Assembly (NCBI GenBank): GCA_902789555.1
Contig: CADAOF010000003.1
Location: 1-64,000 of the forward strand
Direction of reading: 5' to 3'
DNA from: an uncultured Lachnospiraceae bacterium
Lineage (GTDB): Bacteria; Bacillota; Clostridia; Lachnospirales; Lachnospiraceae
Length of the DNA stretch: 64,000 nt
Shown: positions 14,832-49,824 of the stretch, in pieces
Numbering within the stretch: position 1 is the stretch's first letter
Layout: the number at the start of each line of letters is the position of its first letter
Notes under the pieces: generated by a model
What the model was told of the DNA's origin: nothing
What the model saw: the letters and a program-made list of their open reading frames with translations, nothing else
Databases searched by the model: none
Made by a program: the position numbers and the translations under genes

Positions 14832-14990
14832 CGGTTGAACGGTTCGGGAGAGAGCGCTTTTTTCGTGCGCCGCCGAAGGGGATAAAAACTCTCAGGCAAA
14901 AGGATCGGATCGGGACGAAACTCCGAAAAGTGCAGCCATGCACGCCGAAGGTGCAACCCGCAAGGGGAATCTCTCAGGCTTGAAACGGAG
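14832..14990 (+). ncRNA. Tandem glycine riboswitch (two aptamers)
   Basis: Two copies of the glycine aptamer core are visible. Aptamer 1 (to ~14912) has CGGGAGAG, GCCGAAGGGG and CTCTCAGGCAAAAGGA. Aptamer 2 (~14913-14990) has GCCGAAGGTGCAACCCGCAA and TCTCTCAGGC, and is closed by CTCCG (14921-14925) pairing with CGGAG (14986-14990). Tandem glycine riboswitches usually turn on glycine cleavage genes when glycine is abundant. Here the closing stem of aptamer 2 abuts and shares a base with the terminator stem that follows, a simple switch point. It lies between the promoter at 14777 and the GcvT-SHMT gene. Confidence 0.95.
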
Positions 14991-15024
14991 GCATGAAGAC
15001 CTTTGGTCTTCGTGCCTTCTTTTT
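14990..15024 (+). terminator. Riboswitch-controlled terminator (expression platform)
   Basis: A 12-bp stem with one G-U pair (14990-15001 with 15005-15016) and a 3-base loop, followed by TTCTTTTT. It sits directly after aptamer 2 and before the start of the operon's first gene. Confidence 0.85.
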
Positions 15025-15078
15025 ACGTTTTTCGCAGACAATGAACGCCCGGAGCGTTCAGATAAGGGAGGGTCCGGA

Positions 15079-17724
15079 ATGAGCGAACTGAAACGGACAC
15101 AGCTTTATGACATCCATGTGGCGGCAGGCGCCACGATGGTGGACTTCGGCGGCTGGGAGATGCCGGTGCAGTACCCGACGGGTATCGTGGCCGAGCATCT
15201 GTACACCCGCAGCAAATGCAGCCTCTTTGACGTCTCGCATATGGGGCGCCTGCTGGTGGAGGGATCCGAACGGGTCGCTTTCCTGCAGCACGTCGTGAGC
15301 GCGAACGTCGAAGGCCTTCTGCCCGGTCGCGCAATGTACTGCATCCTGCCGGATGAAGACGGCAGCGCCGTGGACGACGCCTACCTCTACCGCTTTGAGG
15401 AAGACCGTCTGCTGCTCGTCGTGAATGCCGCGAACATCGACAAGGATTTAGAACATCTCGCGAAATACGTCGGCGAATATGACTGCCGCATCACGAACAT
15501 CTCTGCGGACTGGGCCTGCATCGCGGTCCAGGGGCCGGCAAGCAAGGACATGCTGATGACGCTTTCGAGCGGCGTACCGGTCACGGAACCGATGAAGAAT
15601 TACGTCAATACCGTGCTGCTGGAAGGCCGCGAGGCGAAGATCGCAAAGACCGGCTACACCGGCGAGCCGCTCGGCTACGAAGTCTTCGTGAAGACCGAAG
15701 ACGGCGCCTGGCTGTGGAACCGCCTCTGCGAACTCGGCGCCCGCCCCGCCGGCCTCGGCGCCCGCGATACGCTGCGTCTCGAAGCGGGACTTCCGCTCTA
15801 CGGTCATGAGATGGGGAGAGATCCTGAAGGTGTCCCGATGCCCGTCTATTCTGCGCCGGTCGCCCGCTTTGCCGTGAGCTTCGCGCCGCAGAAGGGCGAA
15901 TACATCGGCCGCGCCGCGCTGGCAAAACAATACGAAGCCTACCAGCGGATCATGAACCGCGACGACAGCGACAATTCAGCTCTGCCGCGCCGCATCCAGT
16001 GCATCGCGCTCCTTGACCGCGGCGTCATGCGTGCGGGCATGCCCCTCTATAAGGGCGACAGGCAGGTTGGCTGGGTCACCAGCGGGACCATGGTGCCTTT
16101 CTATAAGGCGGAAGGCGAAGGCCTCGAATCCGTGATCACGGAAGAGGTCATGAAGCGTGCCATCGGCATGGCTTACGTGGACAGCGACATCCGCCCGGAT
16201 GACGAAGTGGAAGTGGACATCCGCGGAAAGCGCATCCGCGCCGTGATCGCGGAGCGTCACCTGGATACCATGGCGCCGCCTTTTGCGCGCCCGATCATTT
16301 ACGGCTACACGCTCGCAGAGCACGCACCGGAAGAGGGAAGCCGCCTCGAAAAGGCCGTCCGCCTCATCGGAAAGGCTGCGGACAACCACGAGTGGCGCCA
16401 GCGCCGCTGCATCAACCTGATCCCTTCGGAGAACACGCCTAGCCGCGCCGTAAGGCTCCTTTCCTCGTCCGATCCGAGCGGCCGCTATGCCGAACATAAG
16501 ACCGTGAAGTCCTTCTATGACAAGGACATTTTCTACTACCAGGGCACGAAGTTCATCGACTGGGTCGAGCAGCAGCTGGTGGAGGAGATGAAATATTACC
16601 TCGGTTCGAAGGAGGCTGAGACGCGCGTCACCAGCGGCCAGATGGCCAACACGGCAGTCTTCTCGGCCCTCATGGATTTCAAGAACCGCCTGAACCGCAA
16701 GGTGACGCCCAAACGCCTCGGCTACGTGCTGAACAACCACATCATCAAGGGCGGGCATCTTTCGGCGCAGCCCATGGGCGCGCTGCACGACTACATTGCC
16801 GTGGATCCCGTGACCGAGCAGAATGCAATCGTCAATTTCCCGGTCTGCCCCGACAACATTTATAAGATCGACGTCGAGGAGACCAAGAAGGTCATTGCCG
16901 AGTACAAGCCCGAACTGATCATCTTCGGCAAGAGCATGGTGCTCTGCAAAGAGCCCGTGGCCGCGATCCGGAAGTTCGTGGACGAACAGGGCATCAAAAC
17001 CACGATCATGTACGATATGGCGCACGTGCTCGGCCTCATCGGCCCGCACTTCCAGGAACCCTTCAAGGAAGGCGCTGAGATCGTGACCGGCTCGACGCAC
17101 AAGACCTTCTTCGGCCCGCAGCGCGGCGTGATCGGCACGAACTGGGACGAAGACGATCTGAAGTACGAGCTGTGGGAGACCATCCAGAGACGCGTCTTCC
17201 CGGGCAGCGTTTCCAACCACCACCTCGGCACGCAGCTCGGCCAGCTCATGGCGGCTTACGAGATGAACACCTTCAAGGATGAGTACCAGAAGGCGGTCAT
17301 TGCAAATGCGAAGCACTTCGCGAAAGCTCTCGCGGCACGCGGCCTCACGGTCGAAGGTGACCCGGCCATGGATTACACCGAGACCCACCAGGTGATCGTA
17401 AGCGTCGGCTACGGCAAAGGCGCAGAGGTCGCGGAGCGGCTCGAAAGGAACAACATCATCGTGAACTACCAGGCGACGCCCGACGAGGAAGGCTTCACGG
17501 CCTCCGGCGCGCTCCGCATGGGCGTTTCCGAGATGACCCGCTTCGGTTTCGGCTCCGCGGAATTCGACAAACTTGCCGACCTCATCGCGGACTGCATCCT
17601 GAACGGAAAGGAAGTCGGAGAGGATGCCGCGGCGCTGCGCGACGGCTATACGGCGATGCGCTACTGCTTCAGCGACGAAGAACTCGGCGAAGCGCTTGAC
17701 CGCCTTGCCGGCATGCTGAGGTAG
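15079..17724 (+). CDS. Fusion protein: aminomethyltransferase (GcvT) + serine hydroxymethyltransferase
   Basis: One uninterrupted 881-residue frame. Residues 1 to ~410 are GcvT (T-protein): MVDFGGWEMPVQYP, LFDVSHMG, DEDGSAVDDAYLYR and GYTGEPLGYEVF are its landmarks; it releases ammonia and forms 5,10-methylene-THF from the lipoyl-bound aminomethyl group. Residues ~420-881 are a divergent SHMT: NLIPSENTPS, GGHLSAQPMG, MYDMAHVLGL and STHKTFFGPQ, with the PLP lysine at ~675. SHMT joins methylene-THF and glycine into serine. Both domains are of near full length with their motifs intact. The start at 15079 follows GGAGGG; a frame reaching back to 14938 would cover riboswitch RNA. It is first in the gcv operon, so the fusion could pass methylene-THF directly between the sites. 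Confidence 0.92.
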   Translation: MSELKRTQLYDIHVAAGATMVDFGGWEMPVQYPTGIVAEHLYTRSKCSLFDVSHMGRLLVEGSERVAFLQHVVSANVEGLLPGRAMYCILPDEDGSAVDDAYLYRFEEDRLLLVVNAANIDKDLEHLAKYVGEYDCRITNISADWACIAVQGPASKDMLMTLSSGVPVTEPMKNYVNTVLLEGREAKIAKTGYTGEPLGYEVFVKTEDGAWLWNRLCELGARPAGLGARDTLRLEAGLPLYGHEMGRDPEGVPMPVYSAPVARFAVSFAPQKGEYIGRAALAKQYEAYQRIMNRDDSDNSALPRRIQCIALLDRGVMRAGMPLYKGDRQVGWVTSGTMVPFYKAEGEGLESVITEEVMKRAIGMAYVDSDIRPDDEVEVDIRGKRIRAVIAERHLDTMAPPFARPIIYGYTLAEHAPEEGSRLEKAVRLIGKAADNHEWRQRRCINLIPSENTPSRAVRLLSSSDPSGRYAEHKTVKSFYDKDIFYYQGTKFIDWVEQQLVEEMKYYLGSKEAETRVTSGQMANTAVFSALMDFKNRLNRKVTPKRLGYVLNNHIIKGGHLSAQPMGALHDYIAVDPVTEQNAIVNFPVCPDNIYKIDVEETKKVIAEYKPELIIFGKSMVLCKEPVAAIRKFVDEQGIKTTIMYDMAHVLGLIGPHFQEPFKEGAEIVTGSTHKTFFGPQRGVIGTNWDEDDLKYELWETIQRRVFPGSVSNHHLGTQLGQLMAAYEMNTFKDEYQKAVIANAKHFAKALAARGLTVEGDPAMDYTETHQVIVSVGYGKGAEVAERLERNNIIVNYQATPDEEGFTASGALRMGVSEMTRFGFGSAEFDKLADLIADCILNGKEVGEDAAALRDGYTAMRYCFSDEELGEALDRLAGMLR

Positions 17725-17884: not shown

Positions 17885-18262
17885 ATGAATTATCCCGCAA
17901 GCTTACAGTATTCCCGCGACCATGAATGGCTCAGCCAGGAAGGCGACATCGCCGTTATCGGCATCACCGATTTTGCCCAGCATGAGCTCGGCGACGTCGT
18001 GTTCATCAACCTGCCCGAGGTCGGCGACCAAGTGACCGCGGGCGAAGCTTTCGGCGACGTTGAATCCGTGAAGGCCGTGTCCGATCTGCTCAGCCCGGTC
18101 ACCGGTATCGTTGCGGAGATCAACGAAGAACTGCTGGATTCCCCGGAACTGCTGAACGACGATCCCTATGCCAACTGGATCATCAAGGTGGAACAGGTGA
18201 CGGATACCGAAGAACTGATGAGCGCCGCGGCCTACGCGGATCTGTGCGAAACGGAGGCATAA
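17885..18262 (+). CDS. gcvH: Glycine cleavage system H protein
   Basis: A 125-residue lipoyl carrier. The lipoylated lysine lies in GDVESVKAVSDL (~residue 62), and HEWL near the N-terminus (DHEWLSQEGDIAVIGITDFA) is the family signature. It shuttles the aminomethyl group from the P to the T subunit, then electrons to the L subunit. The ATG at 17885 has AGGAGGA upstream; an in-frame ATG at 17864 precedes that site and is less likely. Its stop is immediately followed by gcvPA (one base gap). A lipoamide dehydrogenase and a lipoate ligase, both needed for the cycle, are not in this window. Confidence 0.96.
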   Translation: MNYPASLQYSRDHEWLSQEGDIAVIGITDFAQHELGDVVFINLPEVGDQVTAGEAFGDVESVKAVSDLLSPVTGIVAEINEELLDSPELLNDDPYANWIIKVEQVTDTEELMSAAAYADLCETEA

Positions 18263-18263
18263 G

Positions 18264-19580
18264 ATGGGCAGTTACATCCCCTCTTCCGAAGCGGAAAGGC
18301 GGGAGATGCTGGAGGCCCTCGGCATGGAAAGCGTCCGGGAACTCTATAAGGACGTTCCGGAAAGCGTACTGCTTGACCGGCCGCTTAACCTGCCGGAAGG
18401 CCTCAGCGAGATGGAAGTGCGGGCAAAGCTCGAGGACATGGCGAAGCTCAACAGGAACTACAGGACCATCCTGCGCGGCGCCGGCGCCTACGACCACTAC
18501 ATCCCCTCCATCGTCCGCTACATCCCCGCGAAAGAAGAATTCCTGACGGCCTATACGCCGTATCAGGCAGAAATGAGCCAGGGCGTGCTGCAGTCCATTT
18601 TCGAGTACCAGACCATGATCTGCGAACTGACCGGGATGGACGTATCGAACGCCTCGGTTTACGACGGCGCGAGCGCGGCGGCTGAGGCAGCTGCGATGTG
18701 CCGCGACCGGAAGCGGAGCGTCACCCTGATCTCCGAAACCGTCCATCCTGACGTCATCAACACGGTCCGTACCTACTGCTACGGCGCGAATGCCGAACTG
18801 AAGGTCGTGCCGGCGAAGGATGGGAAGACCGACCTTGCCGCCCTGAAGGAAATGCTCGCGGCCGATACCGCCGGGGTGATCTTCCAGCAGCCGAACTTTT
18901 TCGGCCTCTTTGAGGACGCGGAAGAGATCATCGCCGCGGTCCACGAGGCCGGCGCGATGGCGGTCATGAGCTGCAATCCGATCGCCCTTGCCGTGATGAA
19001 GACGCCGGGCGAACTGGGTGCGGACGTTGCGGTCGGCGAAGGTCAGCCGCTCGGGCTTCCGCTCGGCTTCGGCGGCCCGTATCTCGGCTTCATGGCGACC
19101 ACGCAGAAGCACATGCGGCGCCTTCCGGGCCGCATCGTGGGCGAGACCGTGGACAGCCGCGGCGGACGGGCTTATGTTCTGTCCCTGCAGGCAAGAGAGC
19201 AGCATATCCGCCGTGAAAAGGCCAGCTCCAACATCTGCTCGAACGAGGCGCTCTGCGCCCTGACGGCCGGCCTGTACATGGCGACAATGGGCCCTGACGG
19301 CATGGCCGAAGTTGCCCGCCAGTGCATGGCGAAGGCGCATTATCTGGCGCAGAAACTGATCGAAGCCGGCTGCCGGCTGGAGTACTCCGGCAGATTCTTC
19401 CATGAATTCGTGACCCGGCAGGAGAACTGCCGGGAGATTCTCGGCGCGCTTTCCGATGAAGGCATTCTGGGCGGCCTGCTGCTTCCTGACGGCGAAAGCA
19501 TCCTCTGGTGCGTGACCGAGAAGGCATCGAAAGAAGCACTGGATGAAGTCGCGGACATCGTAAAGGAGGCACTCGCATGA
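18264..19580 (+). CDS. gcvPA: Glycine dehydrogenase (decarboxylating) subunit 1
   Basis: A 438-residue subunit equal to the N-terminal half of one-chain P-protein, of usual length for split GcvP. It starts with YIPSSEAERREMLEALG and holds the family's FLGAG-like region as FRGAGAYDHYIPS-type sequence (ILRGAGAYDHYIPSIVRYI) and YTPYQAEMSQGVLQ. With GcvPB it forms the PLP enzyme that decarboxylates glycine onto the lipoyl arm of GcvH. It starts one base after gcvH and overlaps gcvPB by 4 bases (ATGA), so subunit translation is coupled. Confidence 0.96.
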   Translation: MGSYIPSSEAERREMLEALGMESVRELYKDVPESVLLDRPLNLPEGLSEMEVRAKLEDMAKLNRNYRTILRGAGAYDHYIPSIVRYIPAKEEFLTAYTPYQAEMSQGVLQSIFEYQTMICELTGMDVSNASVYDGASAAAEAAAMCRDRKRSVTLISETVHPDVINTVRTYCYGANAELKVVPAKDGKTDLAALKEMLAADTAGVIFQQPNFFGLFEDAEEIIAAVHEAGAMAVMSCNPIALAVMKTPGELGADVAVGEGQPLGLPLGFGGPYLGFMATTQKHMRRLPGRIVGETVDSRGGRAYVLSLQAREQHIRREKASSNICSNEALCALTAGLYMATMGPDGMAEVARQCMAKAHYLAQKLIEAGCRLEYSGRFFHEFVTRQENCREILGALSDEGILGGLLLPDGESILWCVTEKASKEALDEVADIVKEALA

Positions 19581-20983
19581 AACTGATTTTTGAAAAGAGC
19601 ATGCCCGGCCACCGCTCGGACCTTCTGCCGGCGCTTGACGTTCCGGCTTTTGACCTACCCGCGTCCATGAAGCGCGCGGAAAAGCCGGCTCTGCCGGAAC
19701 TTTCCGAGACTGAAGTTTCCCGCCACTATACCGAACTGGTGCAGCAAGTGCATGGCGTCAACTGCGGCTTCTATCCGCTCGGTTCCTGTACCATGAAATA
19801 CAACCCGCGCATCGACGAGGAGACGGCTGCCCTCGAGGGTTTTACCCACGTCCATCCGCTCGCGGACGAGCGCGATACCGCCGGCTGCCGCAAGGTGCTG
19901 GAGACCGCGAAGGAACTGCTCTGCGAGATCACGGGCATGGACGACATGACCTTTGAACCCGCGGCCGGCGCGCACGGCGAATTCACCGGCGTGCTGCTGA
20001 TCAAGCAGTACCACAAGTCGCGCGGCGACGAGGCGAGACGGAAGATCATCGTGCCGGACTCCGCGCACGGGACCAATCCCGCGACGGCGGCCATGTGCGG
20101 CTTCGACGTCGTGAACATCGCCTCCGGTCCCGACGGCCTGGTCGATCTGGACGCCCTGAAGGCGGCGCTCGGTCCGGACGTGGCCGGCCTCATGCTGACC
20201 AATCCGAATACGGTAGGCCTCTTCGACAGCAACATCCTCGAGATCACCAGGCTCGTTCACGAGGCAGGAGGCCTGTGTTACTACGACGGCGCGAACCTGA
20301 ACGCGGTCATGGGCGTGGTCAGACCCGGCGACATGGGCTTCGATTGCGTGCACCTGAACCTCCACAAGACTTTCGCGACGCCTCACGGCGGCGGAGGACC
20401 CGGCGCCGGCGCGGTCGGCTGCAAGGCCTTCCTTGCGGACTTCCTGCCCCGCTCCGTGACCATGGACGGCGAGGGCCGCCTGCAGGTCAGAAGCTTTGCC
20501 GGCAACTTCCTCGTGGTCGTGAAGGCGCTCACCTACATCCTGACCCTCGGCCGGGAAGGCATTCCGGAGGCCGCCGAAAACGCGGTCCTGAACGCCAACT
20601 ACCTGATGGAGAAGATCAAAGGTACCTTCGAGCCCGCCTTCGACCGCGTGTGCATGCACGAATTCGTGCTGACGCTGGATAAGTACAAGAAGGAGACCGG
20701 CGTCTCCGCCCTGGACGTGGCCAAGTCGCTGATCGATTACGGCATGCATCCGCCGACAATGTACTTCCCGCTCATCGTGCACGAAGCGCTGATGCTGGAG
20801 CCTACGGAGACGGAAAGCAAGGCCACGCTCGACGAAGCCGCTGAGATCTTCCGCAAGCTGTACAAGCAGGGCTTTGAAGATCCGGAAACCATGAGGACCG
20901 CCCCGCACCACGCCGTGATCGGAAGACCCGACGAGGTCCGCGCAGCTCGCAACCCCATCCTGCGGTGGAAGAAGGAAGAATAA
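19577..20983 (+). CDS. gcvPB: Glycine dehydrogenase (decarboxylating) subunit 2
   Basis: A 468-residue catalytic subunit. The PLP-binding lysine is in NLHKTFATPHGGGGPG (~residue 262), preceded by DSAHGTNPATAAM and LTNPNTVGLF, all typical. It carries out the PLP chemistry of glycine decarboxylation together with GcvPA. It is the last gene of the operon GcvT-SHMT, gcvH, gcvPA, gcvPB; a structured element with a U-rich end follows (21010-21161) and may terminate the transcript. Confidence 0.97.
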   Translation: MKLIFEKSMPGHRSDLLPALDVPAFDLPASMKRAEKPALPELSETEVSRHYTELVQQVHGVNCGFYPLGSCTMKYNPRIDEETAALEGFTHVHPLADERDTAGCRKVLETAKELLCEITGMDDMTFEPAAGAHGEFTGVLLIKQYHKSRGDEARRKIIVPDSAHGTNPATAAMCGFDVVNIASGPDGLVDLDALKAALGPDVAGLMLTNPNTVGLFDSNILEITRLVHEAGGLCYYDGANLNAVMGVVRPGDMGFDCVHLNLHKTFATPHGGGGPGAGAVGCKAFLADFLPRSVTMDGEGRLQVRSFAGNFLVVVKALTYILTLGREGIPEAAENAVLNANYLMEKIKGTFEPAFDRVCMHEFVLTLDKYKKETGVSALDVAKSLIDYGMHPPTMYFPLIVHEALMLEPTETESKATLDEAAEIFRKLYKQGFEDPETMRTAPHHAVIGRPDEVRAARNPILRWKKEE

Positions 20984-21180: not shown

Positions 21181-21209
21181 TTGACCGTCGGGCATTCCTG
21201 CGCTATAAT
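21181..21209 (+). promoter_or_regulatory. Promoter of the DUF5058 operon
   Basis: TTGACC (21181-21186), 17 bp, TATAAT (21204-21209), 29 bp before the ATG at 21239. Confidence 0.8.
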
Positions 21210-21238: not shown

Positions 21239-21985
21239 ATGCTGAAAACACTGAACAGTCCCACCATGTATCTGATCTGCGGCGCCATCGTCTTATTTGT
21301 CGCCGGGGTCTCGGTCTTTTTCATGGTCCGCGCCTGGCGCGCCGGTATCGCCATCGGCATGGATAAGACAAAAATGAAGCGCACCATCACGGCCAGCGCT
21401 ACCTTCTCCGTGCTGCCGAGCCTCGGCATTTTGCTTGGCGTCATCGCACTTTCCGGCGCACTCGGCACGCCACTGCCCTGGCTGCGCCTTTCCGTCATCG
21501 GCGCCCTGCACTATGAGACCCAGGTGGCTGAAGCCGCGGCGGAAGCGGCAGGCTTGTCCGGTCTTTCCGCCTCGGAAATGACGCCGCGTGCCTTCGTCAC
21601 CATTGCCTTCCTCATGTCGGTTTGCATCATGTGGGGCATGGTCTTTTCCGTATTCTTCAACAAAAAGTACCTGAAAAAGCTGAGCGCGGGCGGCGCGAAG
21701 ACGGCTAAGGCCGGCGGCTTCGGCGACGCTGCCATGACGGCCATGTTCATCGGCCTCGTCTCGGCTTACATCGGCAGCTATATCGGCGGTTTCGTTTCCG
21801 AAAAGGGACTCTTCACGTTTAAGGGCAGCTGGATGCCGCTGCTGGTCGCCGGCGTTTCCGCAGCCGTGATGGCGCTGTTCATCCGGATCGAAGAAAAGAA
21901 GAAGGCCGAGTGGGTCGAAGGCTTTGCCCTTGCCGCCAGCATGCTGGCCGGCATGGCTGCCGCAGCGATCGCGTCCGCGCTGTAA
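21239..21985 (+). CDS. DUF5058-family membrane protein
   Basis: A 248-residue protein with about six membrane segments, beginning TMYLICGAIVLFVAGVSVFF. ITASATFSVLPSLGILLGVI and LRLSVIGALHYE are conserved features I associate with DUF5058 proteins of anaerobic Firmicutes. No enzymatic motif is visible. It is strongly tied to the next gene (12-bp gap with a strong AAGGAGG), and the pair is probably a two-subunit membrane transporter or carrier. The substrate is unknown. The start has AAAGGAGGA upstream. Confidence 0.68.
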   Translation: MLKTLNSPTMYLICGAIVLFVAGVSVFFMVRAWRAGIAIGMDKTKMKRTITASATFSVLPSLGILLGVIALSGALGTPLPWLRLSVIGALHYETQVAEAAAEAAGLSGLSASEMTPRAFVTIAFLMSVCIMWGMVFSVFFNKKYLKKLSAGGAKTAKAGGFGDAAMTAMFIGLVSAYIGSYIGGFVSEKGLFTFKGSWMPLLVAGVSAAVMALFIRIEEKKKAEWVEGFALAASMLAGMAAAAIASAL

Positions 21986-21997
21986 GGAGGTGCGAAG

Positions 21998-22696
21998 ATG
22001 GAAGAGAAGAGAATCGTCCTTACGGAAGAAGAGAAAGCGAAAACCTTCGAGACCTACAATGAGCGTACGCACGTCATCGGCCGCGTCGTCTGCATTGCCA
22101 CGCTGATCCTGCTGACCGGGGCGCCCTTCCTTATGGGAGCTTTCCTCGGCGCGATGCCGGACTTCAAGGCGGTCGGAAGAGGCTTCCTCTCGATCGGCAT
22201 TGTCTATTTCGTGAGCTGCATCGCGGAATTCCTGGTCTATACGCCCATGCTCGGCGCGGGCGGCACCTACCTTGCCTTCATCACCGGGAACCTCATTAAC
22301 ATGAAGATCCCCTGCGCCATGAATGCCCGCGACATCGTCGGCGCAAAGACCGGCACGGCGGAGAACGAGATCATTTCCACCCTGTCGATCGCGACCTCGT
22401 CGCTTGTCACCATCCTCGTGCTGGCGGCAGGCGTCGCGCTGCTCATCCCGCTGCAGCCCATCCTGCAGAATCCGGCGCTCCAGCCCGCCTTCGACCAGGT
22501 CGTTCCGGCTCTTTTCGGCGCCATGGCGTACAAATATTACCGGAAGAACATTGGTACCGCCGTCTGGCCGCTCCTCGTCATGAGCATCCTGTTCATGCTG
22601 GTCCCGAGCCTTACCGGTTCCACGAGCTTCATGATCATCCCGAGCGGCGCCATCGCCATCCTGGTTGCCTGGCTGAAGTATAAGAAGGCGAGATAA
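21998..22696 (+). CDS. Membrane protein, partner of the DUF5058 protein
   Basis: A 232-residue protein with a ~25-residue charged cytoplasmic N-terminus and about six membrane segments. Its middle has a conserved-looking segment, GAGGTYLAFITGNLINMKIP, and a polar stretch NARDIVGAKTGTAENEIIST between helices, unusual in being polar and acidic within a membrane protein and possibly a substrate site. Function is not established. Translation is coupled closely to the DUF5058 gene, and a strong terminator (22717-22745) ends the two-gene operon. Confidence 0.68.
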   Translation: MEEKRIVLTEEEKAKTFETYNERTHVIGRVVCIATLILLTGAPFLMGAFLGAMPDFKAVGRGFLSIGIVYFVSCIAEFLVYTPMLGAGGTYLAFITGNLINMKIPCAMNARDIVGAKTGTAENEIISTLSIATSSLVTILVLAAGVALLIPLQPILQNPALQPAFDQVVPALFGAMAYKYYRKNIGTAVWPLLVMSILFMLVPSLTGSTSFMIIPSGAIAILVAWLKYKKAR

Positions 22697-46374: not shown

Positions 46375-47661
46375 TCATTTGATCTTCCTGGCCTCGAGAT
46401 AGTAGCGCTTATCCCTCGCATGACCCATGGAGAAGGTCTTGCGCGGCAGAACGCCGTCCGCCATGACGGTCTTGAAGAGCTGGTCCTTGCCCATTGCCGG
46501 CAGCTTGAAGCCGATGGCATTCTTCTGCATGGACAGGCGTTCCACGACGTCGTCATCGTGGATGTAGTCGACGCTCGCAGCTTCGTGGGCTTTCAGGTAC
46601 TCGTCCAGGAAGGCCTGGAGCGTCCCGACCGGCAGCTGCTTCTCGGGATCCGGCACGGTCACGAAGCCATGTCCGCCGCCGAAGAGATATTCGATCACGT
46701 GGCCTTCGCCGATGCCGTCGTGCGCGCCGGGATGCGCGGCGAAGAAGGCCGTCATGACGTCTTCCGGATCGACGCCGAAGACCACCCGGTGGATGGGTTC
46801 GAACTGCAGGGCGTCATCATGGTTGTTGACGAGTTCCACGAGCGCGTAGCGGGCAGGAGAGGCGTAAGCTGCCTCGCCTTCGCGGGCTTTCAGGTCTTCA
46901 AAGCACTGCTTCGCGGTGGCAAGAGAGTGGTTGCCGTCGCCCATGGCATAAAGAAGCGGAGCGGCATCTTTCAGGCCGTATTTTGCTTCCTGGACTTCAG
47001 GGCACTTCAGGGCGTTCAGCGCGGCCGAGACGGCGGCTTTCTGCGCGCTGTTAAGGAGCCAGCCTCTGATATGGCCGCCGCCCTGCATCAGCTCGAAATC
47101 GTAGACCGGCTGCATGCCGTCCGTTCCTGCAGTCAGCGGTTCGATGACGGTCTTTTCCGGGTCGTCGATCAGCACCATGATGTGCGGAAGCTCGATCGGA
47201 GCGTCCCTGCGGACCCGTACCCGCGGCGGGATGCGGTCAAGGACCGTGCCTTCGGTCGCGCGGATGAGGGCGCCGCTGCCGGGGGTGAAGTCGTAGCAGT
47301 CAAGGTCGACCTTGCCGATCAGACCGTGACGGACCCTGCCGTCCGTTTGCGTGCGCTCGACGTAGATCAGAGCGTCTTCATACGTTCTGAAGATGCCGTC
47401 GGCAAGATATTTTTTCATGGACGCGTTGATCGCGGCGATCTGCGCATCAACGTCCGCGTCGTTTAAGTGCGCTTCCGGCAGGATCAGGCGGTAGGCAGAG
47501 GGGGCGTCCCCGACCTGCTCTTCCACGGCCTGCCAGTACTCGGGCTCGGAGGTGAACTGGTCGCAGGCGATGACCGCCCATTTGGTCATGTCCGTGCCGT
47601 CTTTCGGCAGGAGAATATCGGCCGGTGCAAAGCCGAGGCCGTCAAATAAATGAGTATTCAT
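46375..47661 (-). CDS. DUF1015-family protein linked to serine synthesis
   Basis: A 428-residue cytosolic protein starting MNTHLFDGLGFAPADILLP, with KWAVIACDQFTSEPEYW, the family's N-terminal hallmark, and later LLYAMGDGNHSLATAK and VELVNNHDDALQFEPIHRVV. DUF1015 proteins often sit beside serA and serC in anaerobes, and here it is third in that operon. No phosphoserine phosphatase is in the window. Its HS-containing GDGNHSLATAK motif looks like an active site, but the reaction is not established in my knowledge. The start at 47661 has AAAGGAAAG upstream; a GTG/ATG five codons earlier overlaps it. A hairpin between serA and this gene may limit its expression. Confidence 0.85.
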   Translation of the reverse strand: MNTHLFDGLGFAPADILLPKDGTDMTKWAVIACDQFTSEPEYWQAVEEQVGDAPSAYRLILPEAHLNDADVDAQIAAINASMKKYLADGIFRTYEDALIYVERTQTDGRVRHGLIGKVDLDCYDFTPGSGALIRATEGTVLDRIPPRVRVRRDAPIELPHIMVLIDDPEKTVIEPLTAGTDGMQPVYDFELMQGGGHIRGWLLNSAQKAAVSAALNALKCPEVQEAKYGLKDAAPLLYAMGDGNHSLATAKQCFEDLKAREGEAAYASPARYALVELVNNHDDALQFEPIHRVVFGVDPEDVMTAFFAAHPGAHDGIGEGHVIEYLFGGGHGFVTVPDPEKQLPVGTLQAFLDEYLKAHEAASVDYIHDDDVVERLSMQKNAIGFKLPAMGKDQLFKTVMADGVLPRKTFSMGHARDKRYYLEARKIK

Positions 47662-47674
47662 GATCTTTCCTTTC

Positions 47675-47726
47675 AAAAAAGCCGTGAAGAGAAACTGCTG
47701 CTGTCATGCAGTCCGTTCACGGCTTT
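47675..47726 (-). terminator. Hairpin terminator/attenuator between serA and DUF1015
   Basis: An 11-bp stem (47678-47688 with 47716-47726) is followed on the minus strand by a T-run (47675-47680) and then at once by the ribosome binding site of the DUF1015 gene. Its position inside an apparent operon suggests partial termination. Confidence 0.72.
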
Positions 47727-47734
47727 CCGCTGTT

Positions 47735-48649
47735 TTATTCAAAGAATCCCTTGACGACGCTGATCAGCTCTTTTCCGATCTTCTTCTGGGCTTCTTTCGT
47801 GCCCGCACCGACGTGCGGCGTGCAGCTGACGGCAGGGTGTTCGGCGAGCGCCCAGTTGGGTTCCTTCTCGCTCAGCCAGACGTCAAGGCCGGCGGCTTTC
47901 ACCTTGCCGGAATTCAGGGCATCCAGGAGGGCAGCCTCGTCCACGTTGGAGCCGCGGGAGACGTTGATGATCACCACGCCGTCCTTCATCTTCGCGATCG
48001 CTTCGGCATCGATGATGGGCTTTTCGCCGCTCGGGGCGCAGAGGCAGACGACGTCGGAATTCGCCAGCAGCTCATCCATGGTCACGAAATGCATGGTCTC
48101 GCATTCGACGCCTTCAGGTTTATTGCGGTGGACGACAGACAGGACGTTCATGCCGAGTGCCTGTGCCTTCTTTCCGACCAGGCGGCCGATGCGGCCGTAG
48201 CCGATGACGCCCATGGTCTTGCCTTCCAGTTCAAATCCCTTGGAATAGGCTTTCTTCTCCCACAGATGCTCGCGCATGGTGTGGCCGGCAAGGGAAATGT
48301 ATCTGGCGCAGGAGAAGAGGTGTGCGATCGCAAGCTCCGCTACTGCATTGGAGGAGGAGTTTGGGGTATTCTTCACGGCGATGCCGTTCGCTTCCGCGTA
48401 CTTGACGGCGATATTGTCGACGCCGACGCCGGCGCGGATGATGAGTTTCAGGCGGGAGCCCTTCGCTTCATCGATCTGCGCTTCCTTGATCTTGGTCGCG
48501 GAGCGGATGATGACACAGTCAAAGTCGCGGAGCGCCGCACCGAGCTCAGCCGGTTCATAGAATTTCTCGACGATCTCGTAACCGTCGTTCCGTAAGGTCT
48601 CAACTGCCGCGGCATCCATGCCGTCGGTCACTAAGATACGAATTGCCAT
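47735..48649 (-). CDS. serA: D-3-phosphoglycerate dehydrogenase, short form without ACT domain
   Basis: A 304-residue D-2-hydroxyacid dehydrogenase. NAD motif GVIGYGRIGRLVG (~139-151), the catalytic Arg in INVSRGSNVDE, the Glu in WLSEKEPN and the His in TPHVGAGT are all present. It oxidises 3-phosphoglycerate, the first step of serine synthesis. It stops right after the substrate/NAD domains and lacks the ACT or ASB domains that give serine feedback in longer SerA, so inhibition by serine is not expected. It lies 18 bp after serC in the operon. RBS AAAGGAT. Confidence 0.92.
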   Translation of the reverse strand: MAIRILVTDGMDAAAVETLRNDGYEIVEKFYEPAELGAALRDFDCVIIRSATKIKEAQIDEAKGSRLKLIIRAGVGVDNIAVKYAEANGIAVKNTPNSSSNAVAELAIAHLFSCARYISLAGHTMREHLWEKKAYSKGFELEGKTMGVIGYGRIGRLVGKKAQALGMNVLSVVHRNKPEGVECETMHFVTMDELLANSDVVCLCAPSGEKPIIDAEAIAKMKDGVVIINVSRGSNVDEAALLDALNSGKVKAAGLDVWLSEKEPNWALAEHPAVSCTPHVGAGTKEAQKKIGKELISVVKGFFE

Positions 48650-48667
48650 GGTCTTATCCTTTCCGTC

Positions 48668-49756
48668 TCAGTGTTTCGCTTCGTAGTCTTTCAGGAAAGC
48701 AACAAGGGCTTCGACGCCTTCCTTCGGCATGGCGTTGTAAATGGAGGCTCTGAGGCCGCCCACGCTCTTGTGGCCTTTCAGGTTGCTGAAGCCGGCGGCG
48801 ACGGAGGCTGCGACGACGTCCGCATCCATTTCCTTGCTCGGGGTGACGAACGGCACGTTCATCAGGGAGCGGTCCTTCTTCACGACGGCGCCCTTGAAGA
48901 GTTTGCTGCTGTCCAGGAAATCGTACAGGACGGCGGCCTTTTCTTCGTTGAGCTTATTCATCGCTTCCAGTCCGCCGATGGTGTTCTGCAGATATTTGAA
49001 CACTTTGCCGCAGCAGTAGATAGCCCAGCAGTTCGGGGTGTTGTAGAGGGAGGCGGCGTCGGCATGAGTCTTGTAGCTCATGTAGGTCGGGACGAAATGC
49101 GGCAGATCGTCGCGGATCAGATCCTCGCGGATGATCACGACGGCAAGGCCGGCAGGACCCACGTTCTTCTGCACGCCGGCCCAGATGAGGCCGTACTTGG
49201 AGACGTCGCAGGGACGGGAGAGGAACATGGAGGACTGGTCGGAAACGAGGACGTGGCCTTTGGTGTTCGGCAGCTCAAAGTAGGTGGTGCCGTTGATGGT
49301 CTCGTTCTCGCAGATGTAGACGTAGTCGGCGTCTTCCGGGATGTCCAGATCGGAGCAGTCCGGAATGTAGCTGAAGTTCTTATCCTTCGAAGAGGCGGCG
49401 ATGATCACTTCGCCGTATTTTTTTGCTTCGTTAATGGCCTTCTTGGACCAGGAACCGGTCTCGATGTAGACGGCCTTGCCGTTCTTCATCAGATTCATGG
49501 GGACCATGGCGAACTGCAGGGTGCCGCCGCCCTGGATGAAGAGGACCTTGTAATTGTCCGGGATATTCATCAGTTTACGGAGATCGGCTTCCGCATCCTG
49601 AATGATCTGCTCGAAGACCTTGGAGCGGTGGCTCATTTCCATCACGCACATGCCGCTGCCGCGGTAGTTCATCATCTCGTCACGGATCTCTTCCAGCACG
49701 GGTTCCGGCATCATGGCGGGGCCGGCGGAGAAGTTAAAAGTACGACCGTAATTCAT
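48668..49756 (-). CDS. serC: Phosphoserine aminotransferase
   Basis: A 362-residue PLP enzyme that makes phosphoserine from 3-phosphohydroxypyruvate and glutamate. It starts NYGRTFNFSAGPAMMPEPVL, and the PLP lysine is in IWAGVQKNVGPAG (~195). The C-terminal GHKSVGGLRASIYNAM is typical. I start at ATG 49756, with GGAGGA seven bases upstream; a 12-codon extension to 49792 covers that site. It is first in the leftward operon serC-serA-DUF1015 and divergent from the AraC regulator across 131 bp. Confidence 0.96.
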   Translation of the reverse strand: MNYGRTFNFSAGPAMMPEPVLEEIRDEMMNYRGSGMCVMEMSHRSKVFEQIIQDAEADLRKLMNIPDNYKVLFIQGGGTLQFAMVPMNLMKNGKAVYIETGSWSKKAINEAKKYGEVIIAASSKDKNFSYIPDCSDLDIPEDADYVYICENETINGTTYFELPNTKGHVLVSDQSSMFLSRPCDVSKYGLIWAGVQKNVGPAGLAVVIIREDLIRDDLPHFVPTYMSYKTHADAASLYNTPNCWAIYCCGKVFKYLQNTIGGLEAMNKLNEEKAAVLYDFLDSSKLFKGAVVKKDRSLMNVPFVTPSKEMDADVVAASVAAGFSNLKGHKSVGGLRASIYNAMPKEGVEALVAFLKDYEAKH

Positions 49757-49824
49757 CACAGTTCCTCCTTGAATATGCATGCCCTGGGGCAATTGTTTAC
49801 TGCTTTGCGATAATAAAATTATAG

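Follow-up and report, generated by a model that had tools for sequence, protein, structure and literature searches.

Glycine cleavage and serine hydroxymethylation in described systems

The glycine cleavage system and serine hydroxymethyltransferase (SHMT) are both reversible, and in plant mitochondria glycine decarboxylase and SHMT, acting as separate enzymes, carry out the net conversion of two glycines to serine during photorespiration. Direct passage of 5,10-methylene-tetrahydrofolate (methylene-THF) from the glycine cleavage system to SHMT is an old question, for mitochondria as well as for bacteria. Here, we describe a gene that joins GcvT, the T-protein of the glycine cleavage system, to an SHMT in one reading frame, and whose product is probably a bifunctional enzyme. 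It is encoded within 64,000 nucleotides of DNA from an uncultured Lachnospiraceae bacterium (assembly GCA_902789555.1, contig CADAOF010000003.1, positions 1 to 64,000 of the forward strand; hereafter the window).

Ordinary GcvT, as found in Escherichia coli (b2905) and Bacillus subtilis (1yx2), is a separate protein of ~365 amino acids (aa), whereas the corresponding half of the fusion extends over ~408 aa, with extra segments in its C-terminal part, and is followed by a linker and the SHMT. Canonical GlyA (PRK00011/NF000586) has a gene of its own; it shares the pyridoxal phosphate (PLP) residues and most of the folate residues with the fusion, but falls in the opposite part of the SHMT tree, and the E. 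coli protein is 30% identical (123/410) to the SHMT half. The SHMT of the archaeon Methanocaldococcus jannaschii (4bhd, 4uqv) is likewise standalone, is 34-36% identical over a structural alignment, and lacks three insertions of the fusion, which appear there as alignment gaps. Dimethylglycine oxidase, dimethylglycine dehydrogenase and sarcosine oxidase (1pj6, 5l46, 2gag) combine a GcvT-like folate domain with an oxidase. In these enzymes, the folate domain sits at the C terminus and receives a one-carbon unit from a flavin domain, unlike the arrangement described here, where a true T-protein precedes a methylene-THF-consuming enzyme.

At the level of the operon, a comparable case is gcs2 of Pseudomonas aeruginosa (gcvH2-gcvP2-glyA2-sdaA-gcvT2), which is reported to be glycine-induced and to yield pyruvate via serine (PMC4894688). 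Like the fusion operon, for which glycine induction is predicted, gcs2 joins the glycine cleavage system and SHMT in one glycine-induced unit, but its proteins are separate, its regulator is the protein GcsR and not a riboswitch, and it includes a serine dehydratase.

An earlier note on this DNA, made from the letters alone, knew of no description of the fusion, and this holds for the literature searched: no description of a GcvT-SHMT fusion was found among titles and abstract openings of the open-licence literature in PMC, nor does the word 'fusion' occur in PMC7227101 or PMC12674515, two papers on glycine cleavage cited below, with subscription papers and the domain-architecture listings of databases lying outside that scope. 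Both domains are known, and it is their covalent union that appears undescribed in the open-licence literature.

A T-protein and an SHMT in a single reading frame

The fusion gene is divided as follows:

15079..17724, plus strand: GcvT-SHMT fusion gene, 881 aa, identified by its frame, by Pfam and by the same frame in 80/80 homologous loci
15079..16302, plus strand: T-protein half, residues 1-408
16303..16374, plus strand: linker, residues 409-432, of constrained length and free sequence
16375..17721, plus strand: SHMT half, residues 433-881

The frame is uninterrupted from the ATG at 15079 to the stop codon at 17722-17724. A further in-frame ATG upstream, at 14938, sits within aptamer 2 of a glycine riboswitch (14921-14990), and at the position equivalent to 15079 the 76 complete homologues all have a start codon, read as M in 75 cases and as V in one (L099). 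As the earlier note had proposed, one frame joins T-protein and SHMT, with Pfam matches, all above their gathering scores, to GCV_T (residues 9-248, 249.9 bits), GCV_T_C (residues 358-394, 46 bits) and SHMT (PF00464, residues 433-836, 142.2 bits). A predicted structure, also called for in that note as a view of the two sites, folds as T-protein plus SHMT and matches both folds, that of SHMT being fold type I (VIA-align 2), with a predicted template modelling score (pTM) of 0.83 and a predicted local distance difference test (pLDDT) value of 85.

A scan of contigs from GTDB genomes gave 560 stretches encoding some relative, and the 80 loci kept from these (64-98% identity) place the fusion in at least 80 related genome records. 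In all 80, the two halves share one frame: 76 loci have both ends, two end at a 3' contig edge and two at a 5' contig edge, and the complete copies are 880-888 residues long. The linker measures 34 residues between the conserved anchors R404 and W439 in 69/77 copies and 32-35 in 77/77, at a mean sequence identity of 32%. An assembly error or frameshift that merged two genes, which the earlier note had raised for the joint, is ruled out by in-frame fusion at 80/80 loci, and comparison with three close relatives shows mostly synonymous changes, or none, across the joint region. The sole hint of such an artefact comes from a copy in the window's genus and outside the 80 loci (G776, L142:1-1956), with an in-frame TAG in its SHMT half and a cut at the contig end; this copy is either a broken gene or carries a sequencing error of a metagenome-assembled genome (MAG).

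Catalytic residues are retained in both halves, in agreement with the intact motifs noted earlier. The residue alignment comprised 77 copies (the window and the 76 complete homologues, with four truncated rows omitted) together with E. coli GlyA and GcvT. For the T-protein half, D99, N116 and E201 (E. coli D97, N114 and E196) are identical in 77/77 copies, and position 200 holds Y in 71 copies and F in the other 6; we take E. coli D97 to be the catalytic Asp of T-protein, with folate residues as its neighbours. No variation occurs in FDVSHM, TGYTGE and LGARD across the 41 copies of one fusion alignment, and the half exceeds the cut-offs of two gcvT models (TIGR00528, 266.7 against 235.85; PRK00389, 324 against 300). 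The fusion is the sole GCV_T match above cut-off in 26/30 genomes, with a second full match in G473 and G119 and a partial one in G308 and G113.

For the SHMT half, the positions corresponding to S35, Y55, E57, Y64, Y65, H126, S175, D200, H203, K229 and R363 of E. coli GlyA are identical in 77/77 copies, and H228 in 76 of 77, the remaining copy reading X. G125 and L127 are likewise identical in 77/77, and L121 is replaced by I in 77/77. Here, we take K229 to be the PLP lysine, and E57, Y64/Y65, H126, D200 and R363 to be the residues of THF dependence, and so the SHMT half does not lack its PLP and folate residues, an outcome that the earlier note had set against its own proposal.

Both halves are under purifying selection. 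For three close relatives paired with the window, the ratio of nonsynonymous to synonymous substitution rates (dN/dS) lies at 0.086-0.093 in the GcvT half and at 0.032-0.059 in the SHMT half; a fourth pair gives 0.127 and 0.048, respectively. Mean identity to the window is 77% for the SHMT half and 69% for the GcvT half, and is higher for SHMT in 74/76 copies. Thus, for all its distance from GlyA, the SHMT half is better conserved than the T-protein half across the fusion family.

The SHMT half as a subfamily of its own

The suggestion that the SHMT half forms its own subfamily is borne out by a single clade, by private insertions and by a score below the GlyA cut-off (given below), and on these sequence criteria it is a distinct, single-clade subfamily. 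Its best relative of solved structure, by sequence, is the archaeal M. jannaschii SHMT (197 bits), the best bacterial one scoring 112 bits. In a tree of 55 SHMT sequences, for which the program issued a long-branch warning, the 28 fusion rows form one clade (100/100) on a long stem and join M. jannaschii and four odd standalone proteins, with 22 GlyA rows across a 100/100 branch. Three insertions mark the fusion:

16510..16530, plus strand: insertion 1, residues 478-484, between E57 and Y64/Y65 of E. coli GlyA
16690..16725, plus strand: insertion 2, residues 538-549, before the L121-H126 strand of GlyA
16798..16824, plus strand: insertion 3, residues 574-582, after the H126 loop of GlyA

All three are present in each of the 12 fusion rows compared, a subset of the copies. 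None of the 24 standalone proteins compared has insertion 2, nor does E. coli GlyA. At the places of insertions 1 and 3, these proteins have a shorter insertion or none; the exception is L133, whose place 1 holds an insertion as long as that of the fusion but different from it. As placed by alignment, each insertion flanks segments carrying what we take to be the folate-pocket residues of GlyA.

The four standalone proteins nearest by score are without Glu at position 57, whereas the fusion keeps it. In the standalone SHMT-like proteins L117, L118, L123 and L134, Cys replaces the folate residue Glu57 and the loop of the GGHL segment is rewritten; judged by these changes, they are probably not folate-dependent SHMTs. 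Among the 398 phylum genomes, the nearest standalone proteins to the SHMT half are 33-35% identical, and a split ancestor was not found at E <= 1e-31.

A riboswitch-controlled gcv operon

The elements that surround the fusion gene are:

14835..14917, plus strand: glycine riboswitch aptamer 1 (RF00504, 62.7 bits, E 1.3e-10)
14921..14990, plus strand: glycine riboswitch aptamer 2 (RF00504, 36.6 bits, E 0.00098)
14987..15019, plus strand: intrinsic terminator of the riboswitch, a 15-pair stem and a T run
17885..18262, plus strand: gcvH (Pfam GCV_H, 138.2 bits)
18264..19580, plus strand: gcvPA (Pfam GDC-P, 439.7 bits)
19577..20983, plus strand: gcvPB (Pfam GcvP2_C, 86.1 bits)

Both aptamers exceed the RF00504 gathering score of 32, and the tandem riboswitch upstream, with gcvH-gcvPA-gcvPB downstream, makes this a riboswitch-controlled gcv operon, as first supposed. 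The region 14985-15095 has a fold z of -4.42. Because the 5' arm of the terminator overlaps the 3' strand of the aptamer 2 closing stem, an overlap judged by eye, bound glycine should block termination, a geometry suggestive of a glycine-ON switch.

Among the 80 loci, gcvH lies downstream of the fusion in 65, in some at up to ~1.6 kb, and gcv genes lie upstream in two (for L101, only gcvPB is in view). A P-protein is present in 14/14 genomes tested. In 16 of 20 loci chosen for testing among the 80, a glycine riboswitch lies within 700 bp upstream; for the remaining four, it is at the operon head in L097 and 1.8 kb upstream in L065, and was not found in L056 and L085.

Single loci have other neighbours. 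In L099, a 2-hydroxyacid-dehydrogenase gene (serA-like by reading) stands immediately behind the fusion, and a neighbour in L048 belongs to the beta-eliminating-lyase family. In the case of G473 (L138:255-7471), the fusion adjoins an MttB-family methyltransferase, a corrinoid protein and a sigma-54 activator, in a genome that additionally has ordinary GcvT and ordinary GlyA; this copy is perhaps tied to the use of methylated amines. By their predicted families, these neighbours would fit serine and glycine metabolism.

Downstream of gcvPB in the window, a DUF5058 membrane protein and a second membrane protein with no Pfam match (21239-22696) are preceded by a promoter-like site (21181-21209, 11/12 matches). 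The pair is possibly a transporter. Among the 80 loci, L022 and L089, both close relatives, are the only ones where it comes after gcvPB (L023 is too short to show this), and in L040 it occurs upstream of the fusion, at 32% identity.

Distribution and replacement of GlyA

The distribution of the fusion is patchy: it occurs in 1/100 genomes sampled of the window's family, 5/245 of its class and 2/398 of its phylum, each count including the window's own genome. Named hosts include Oscillibacter valericigenes, of which both strains tested also carry ordinary GlyA, and many gut and rumen MAGs titled Oscillospiraceae, Clostridiales and Lachnospiraceae. Spread to another phylum, as the Calditrichales title of L097 would have it, was rejected, both halves of this locus being identical to those of G279, which is indexed in the window's class; the organism name in the record looks wrong. 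L025 and L085 are assigned to Bacteroidota and Actinomycetota, respectively, by record label only.

A genome search for a separate glyA, as proposed earlier and including checks on the window's genome, was made with PF00464 in 54 distinct fusion genomes (the window genome plus 25 and 29 more make 55, with G121, a duplicate of G279, counted once). The fusion is the only full-length SHMT found in 30/54. Some fusion genomes have extra weak partial matches of <32 bits, taken as other PLP enzymes. With no other full-length SHMT found in those 30, the fusion therefore probably does the ordinary job of GlyA as well, and the initial picture of a two-glycine-to-serine machine needs amending to that extent.

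A search of the window's genus covered 16 genomes, 12 of them good (>=90% complete, <=5% contaminated). Of the good genomes, 11 have the fusion type only, one (G783) has ordinary GlyA only, and none has both. Six of the 11 are tied to inspected fusion loci (G000, G775, G779, G780, G784 and G776); G775, G779, G780 and G784 match the genomes of L023, L022, L049 and L089 in coordinates, and G776 is tied through L142. For the other five, the assignment relies on score and on a frame that stays open for 883-916 codons. Among the four genomes of poorer quality, one contained a cut fusion-type match and one a fragment, and two were blank. From such genome contents, the fusion has probably replaced GlyA in many hosts.

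The SHMT half also appears to have been lost. In a GcvT tree of 50 rows, the unfused GcvTs of G178 and G310 fall inside the fusion clade; both proteins terminate at the joint, and both genomes (2/2) carry ordinary GlyA. By the approximately unbiased (AU) test, a clade of fusions that excludes both G178 and G310 is rejected (p 2.3e-8), and placing G310 alone (p 0.197) or G178 alone (p 0.067) outside is not. Thus, at least one loss of the SHMT half is supported, and two losses are favoured, not proved.

Proposed function and alternative explanations

The explanation that we favour, at a probability of roughly 70%, is that the fusion is a bifunctional T-protein/SHMT that would couple methylene-THF formed from one glycine to the formation of serine from a second, and that has replaced GlyA in many hosts; the two activities, the direction of flux and any benefit of proximity are inferred. 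At high glycine, the riboswitch would permit readthrough into the operon, and the N-terminal half would accept the aminomethyl group carried on the H-protein's lipoyl arm, giving NH3 and 5,10-methylene-THF. The C-terminal PLP half would use methylene-THF and a second glycine to form serine, returning THF, for a net reaction of 2 glycine to serine + CO2 + NH3 + NADH. One chain with a near-fixed linker would keep methylene-THF low and local, with less formaldehyde released and THF recycled as the expected result. Since SHMT catalysis can run both ways, the fusion could also act as a general cellular SHMT.

In vitro, addition of SHMT to the E. coli glycine cleavage system is reported to have kept formaldehyde from methylene-THF near zero (PMC7227101). 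Direct channelling of methylene-THF by the fusion is plausible. A stronger version, which we put forward tentatively and consider less likely than not, is that of a covalent glycine-to-serine converter. Here, (polyglutamyl) methylene-THF would be handed from site to site within a fusion dimer, with a specialised SHMT remodelled by the three insertions around its folate pocket, such that cleavage and hydroxymethylation become kinetically one step; in several lineages of Clostridia from gut and rumen, this converter would have taken the place of GlyA.

Several observations weigh against the bifunctional explanation. Relative to E. coli GlyA, four changes are constant (N347 to Q798, R235 to Q681, S99 to Q521 and G262 to S712), and the SHMT half scores 267.1 bits against the NCBIfam GlyA cut-off of 335 (NF000586/PRK00011). 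The flanks of 10/80 loci are without gcvH or gcvP, and in 3 more the contig ends first; P-protein is present in 8/8 genomes tested out of those 10. Ordinary GlyA stands alongside the fusion in 24/54 genomes, and since completeness is unstated for most of the 54, some of the GlyA absences may be assembly gaps. Fhs was found in 25/26 genomes searched, in the window's genome as a contig-end piece only, and not in G120, and therefore one-carbon units can also come from formate. In addition, a switch turned on by glycine is an odd fit for a sole SHMT that has to make glycine, since in a cell with the fusion alone SHMT would then be lowest at low glycine. These cells may obtain one-carbon units from formate and glycine from outside or from threonine, or may rely on basal expression.

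For serine, serC was found in 19/21 genomes tested, the window's included, and was not found in G120 and G121. Serine supply is therefore not dependent on the fusion alone, and glycine as the only source of serine is not supported. In the window, serC (48668-49792) is the first of three genes in a row on the minus strand (46375-49792), with a 2-hydroxyacid-dehydrogenase-like gene at 47735-48649 (serA-like by reading) and a third gene at 46375-47676.

The SHMT half could have become a related aldolase or transaldolase that is no longer an SHMT, giving the fusion another function, which we consider improbable. Glu57, Y64, Y65, G125 and L127 are identical in 77/77 copies, set against the four nearest-scoring single-domain proteins with no Glu57, and the half scores 145.8 bits against a cut-off of 650 for fluorothreonine/threonine transaldolase (TIGR04506). 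That the fusion is so often the only full-length SHMT, and that both genomes with the SHMT half missing have ordinary GlyA, also argue against a change of function. A more serious alternative, to which we give slightly less than even odds, is that the fusion is a tether for equal dosage and regulation only, where both halves work, methylene-THF exchanges freely with the bulk, and the SHMT half amounts to an ordinary GlyA translated together with gcvT. This explanation shares the bifunctionality with the one that we favour and denies only the benefit of proximity, such that the odds of the two overlap. It is consistent with the conservation of both halves beside a linker of free sequence, with the general needs that a sole SHMT must meet if the hosts need SHMT, and with G310, whose gcv operon contains an unfused gcvT from the fusion's subfamily. 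From mere tethering, the nearly fixed length of the linker and the three insertions beside folate-pocket segments are both unexpected.

The pathway may also run in reverse, from serine + CO2 + NH3 + NADH to 2 glycine, as an electron sink or a source of glycine in a fermenting anaerobe, with methylene-THF passing from the SHMT to the T-protein. The frequency of serC, by which serine would be available from 3-phosphoglycerate, and that of Fhs speak for this direction, as does Peptoclostridium acidaminophilum, where SHMT is reported to split serine and feed the cleavage system (PMC12674515). The riboswitch architecture predicts induction by glycine, fitting breakdown over synthesis, and we regard the reverse direction as rather unlikely.

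Implications for one-carbon metabolism

As a natural fusion, the protein makes the passage of methylene-THF testable with one purified protein, and it would offer a ready-made coupled module for engineered reductive or oxidative glycine pathways. Where the fusion is annotated as GcvT alone, its SHMT half would be overlooked. A glycine-controlled T-protein that carries the only SHMT found would change predictions of one-carbon metabolism for the gut and rumen bacteria concerned.

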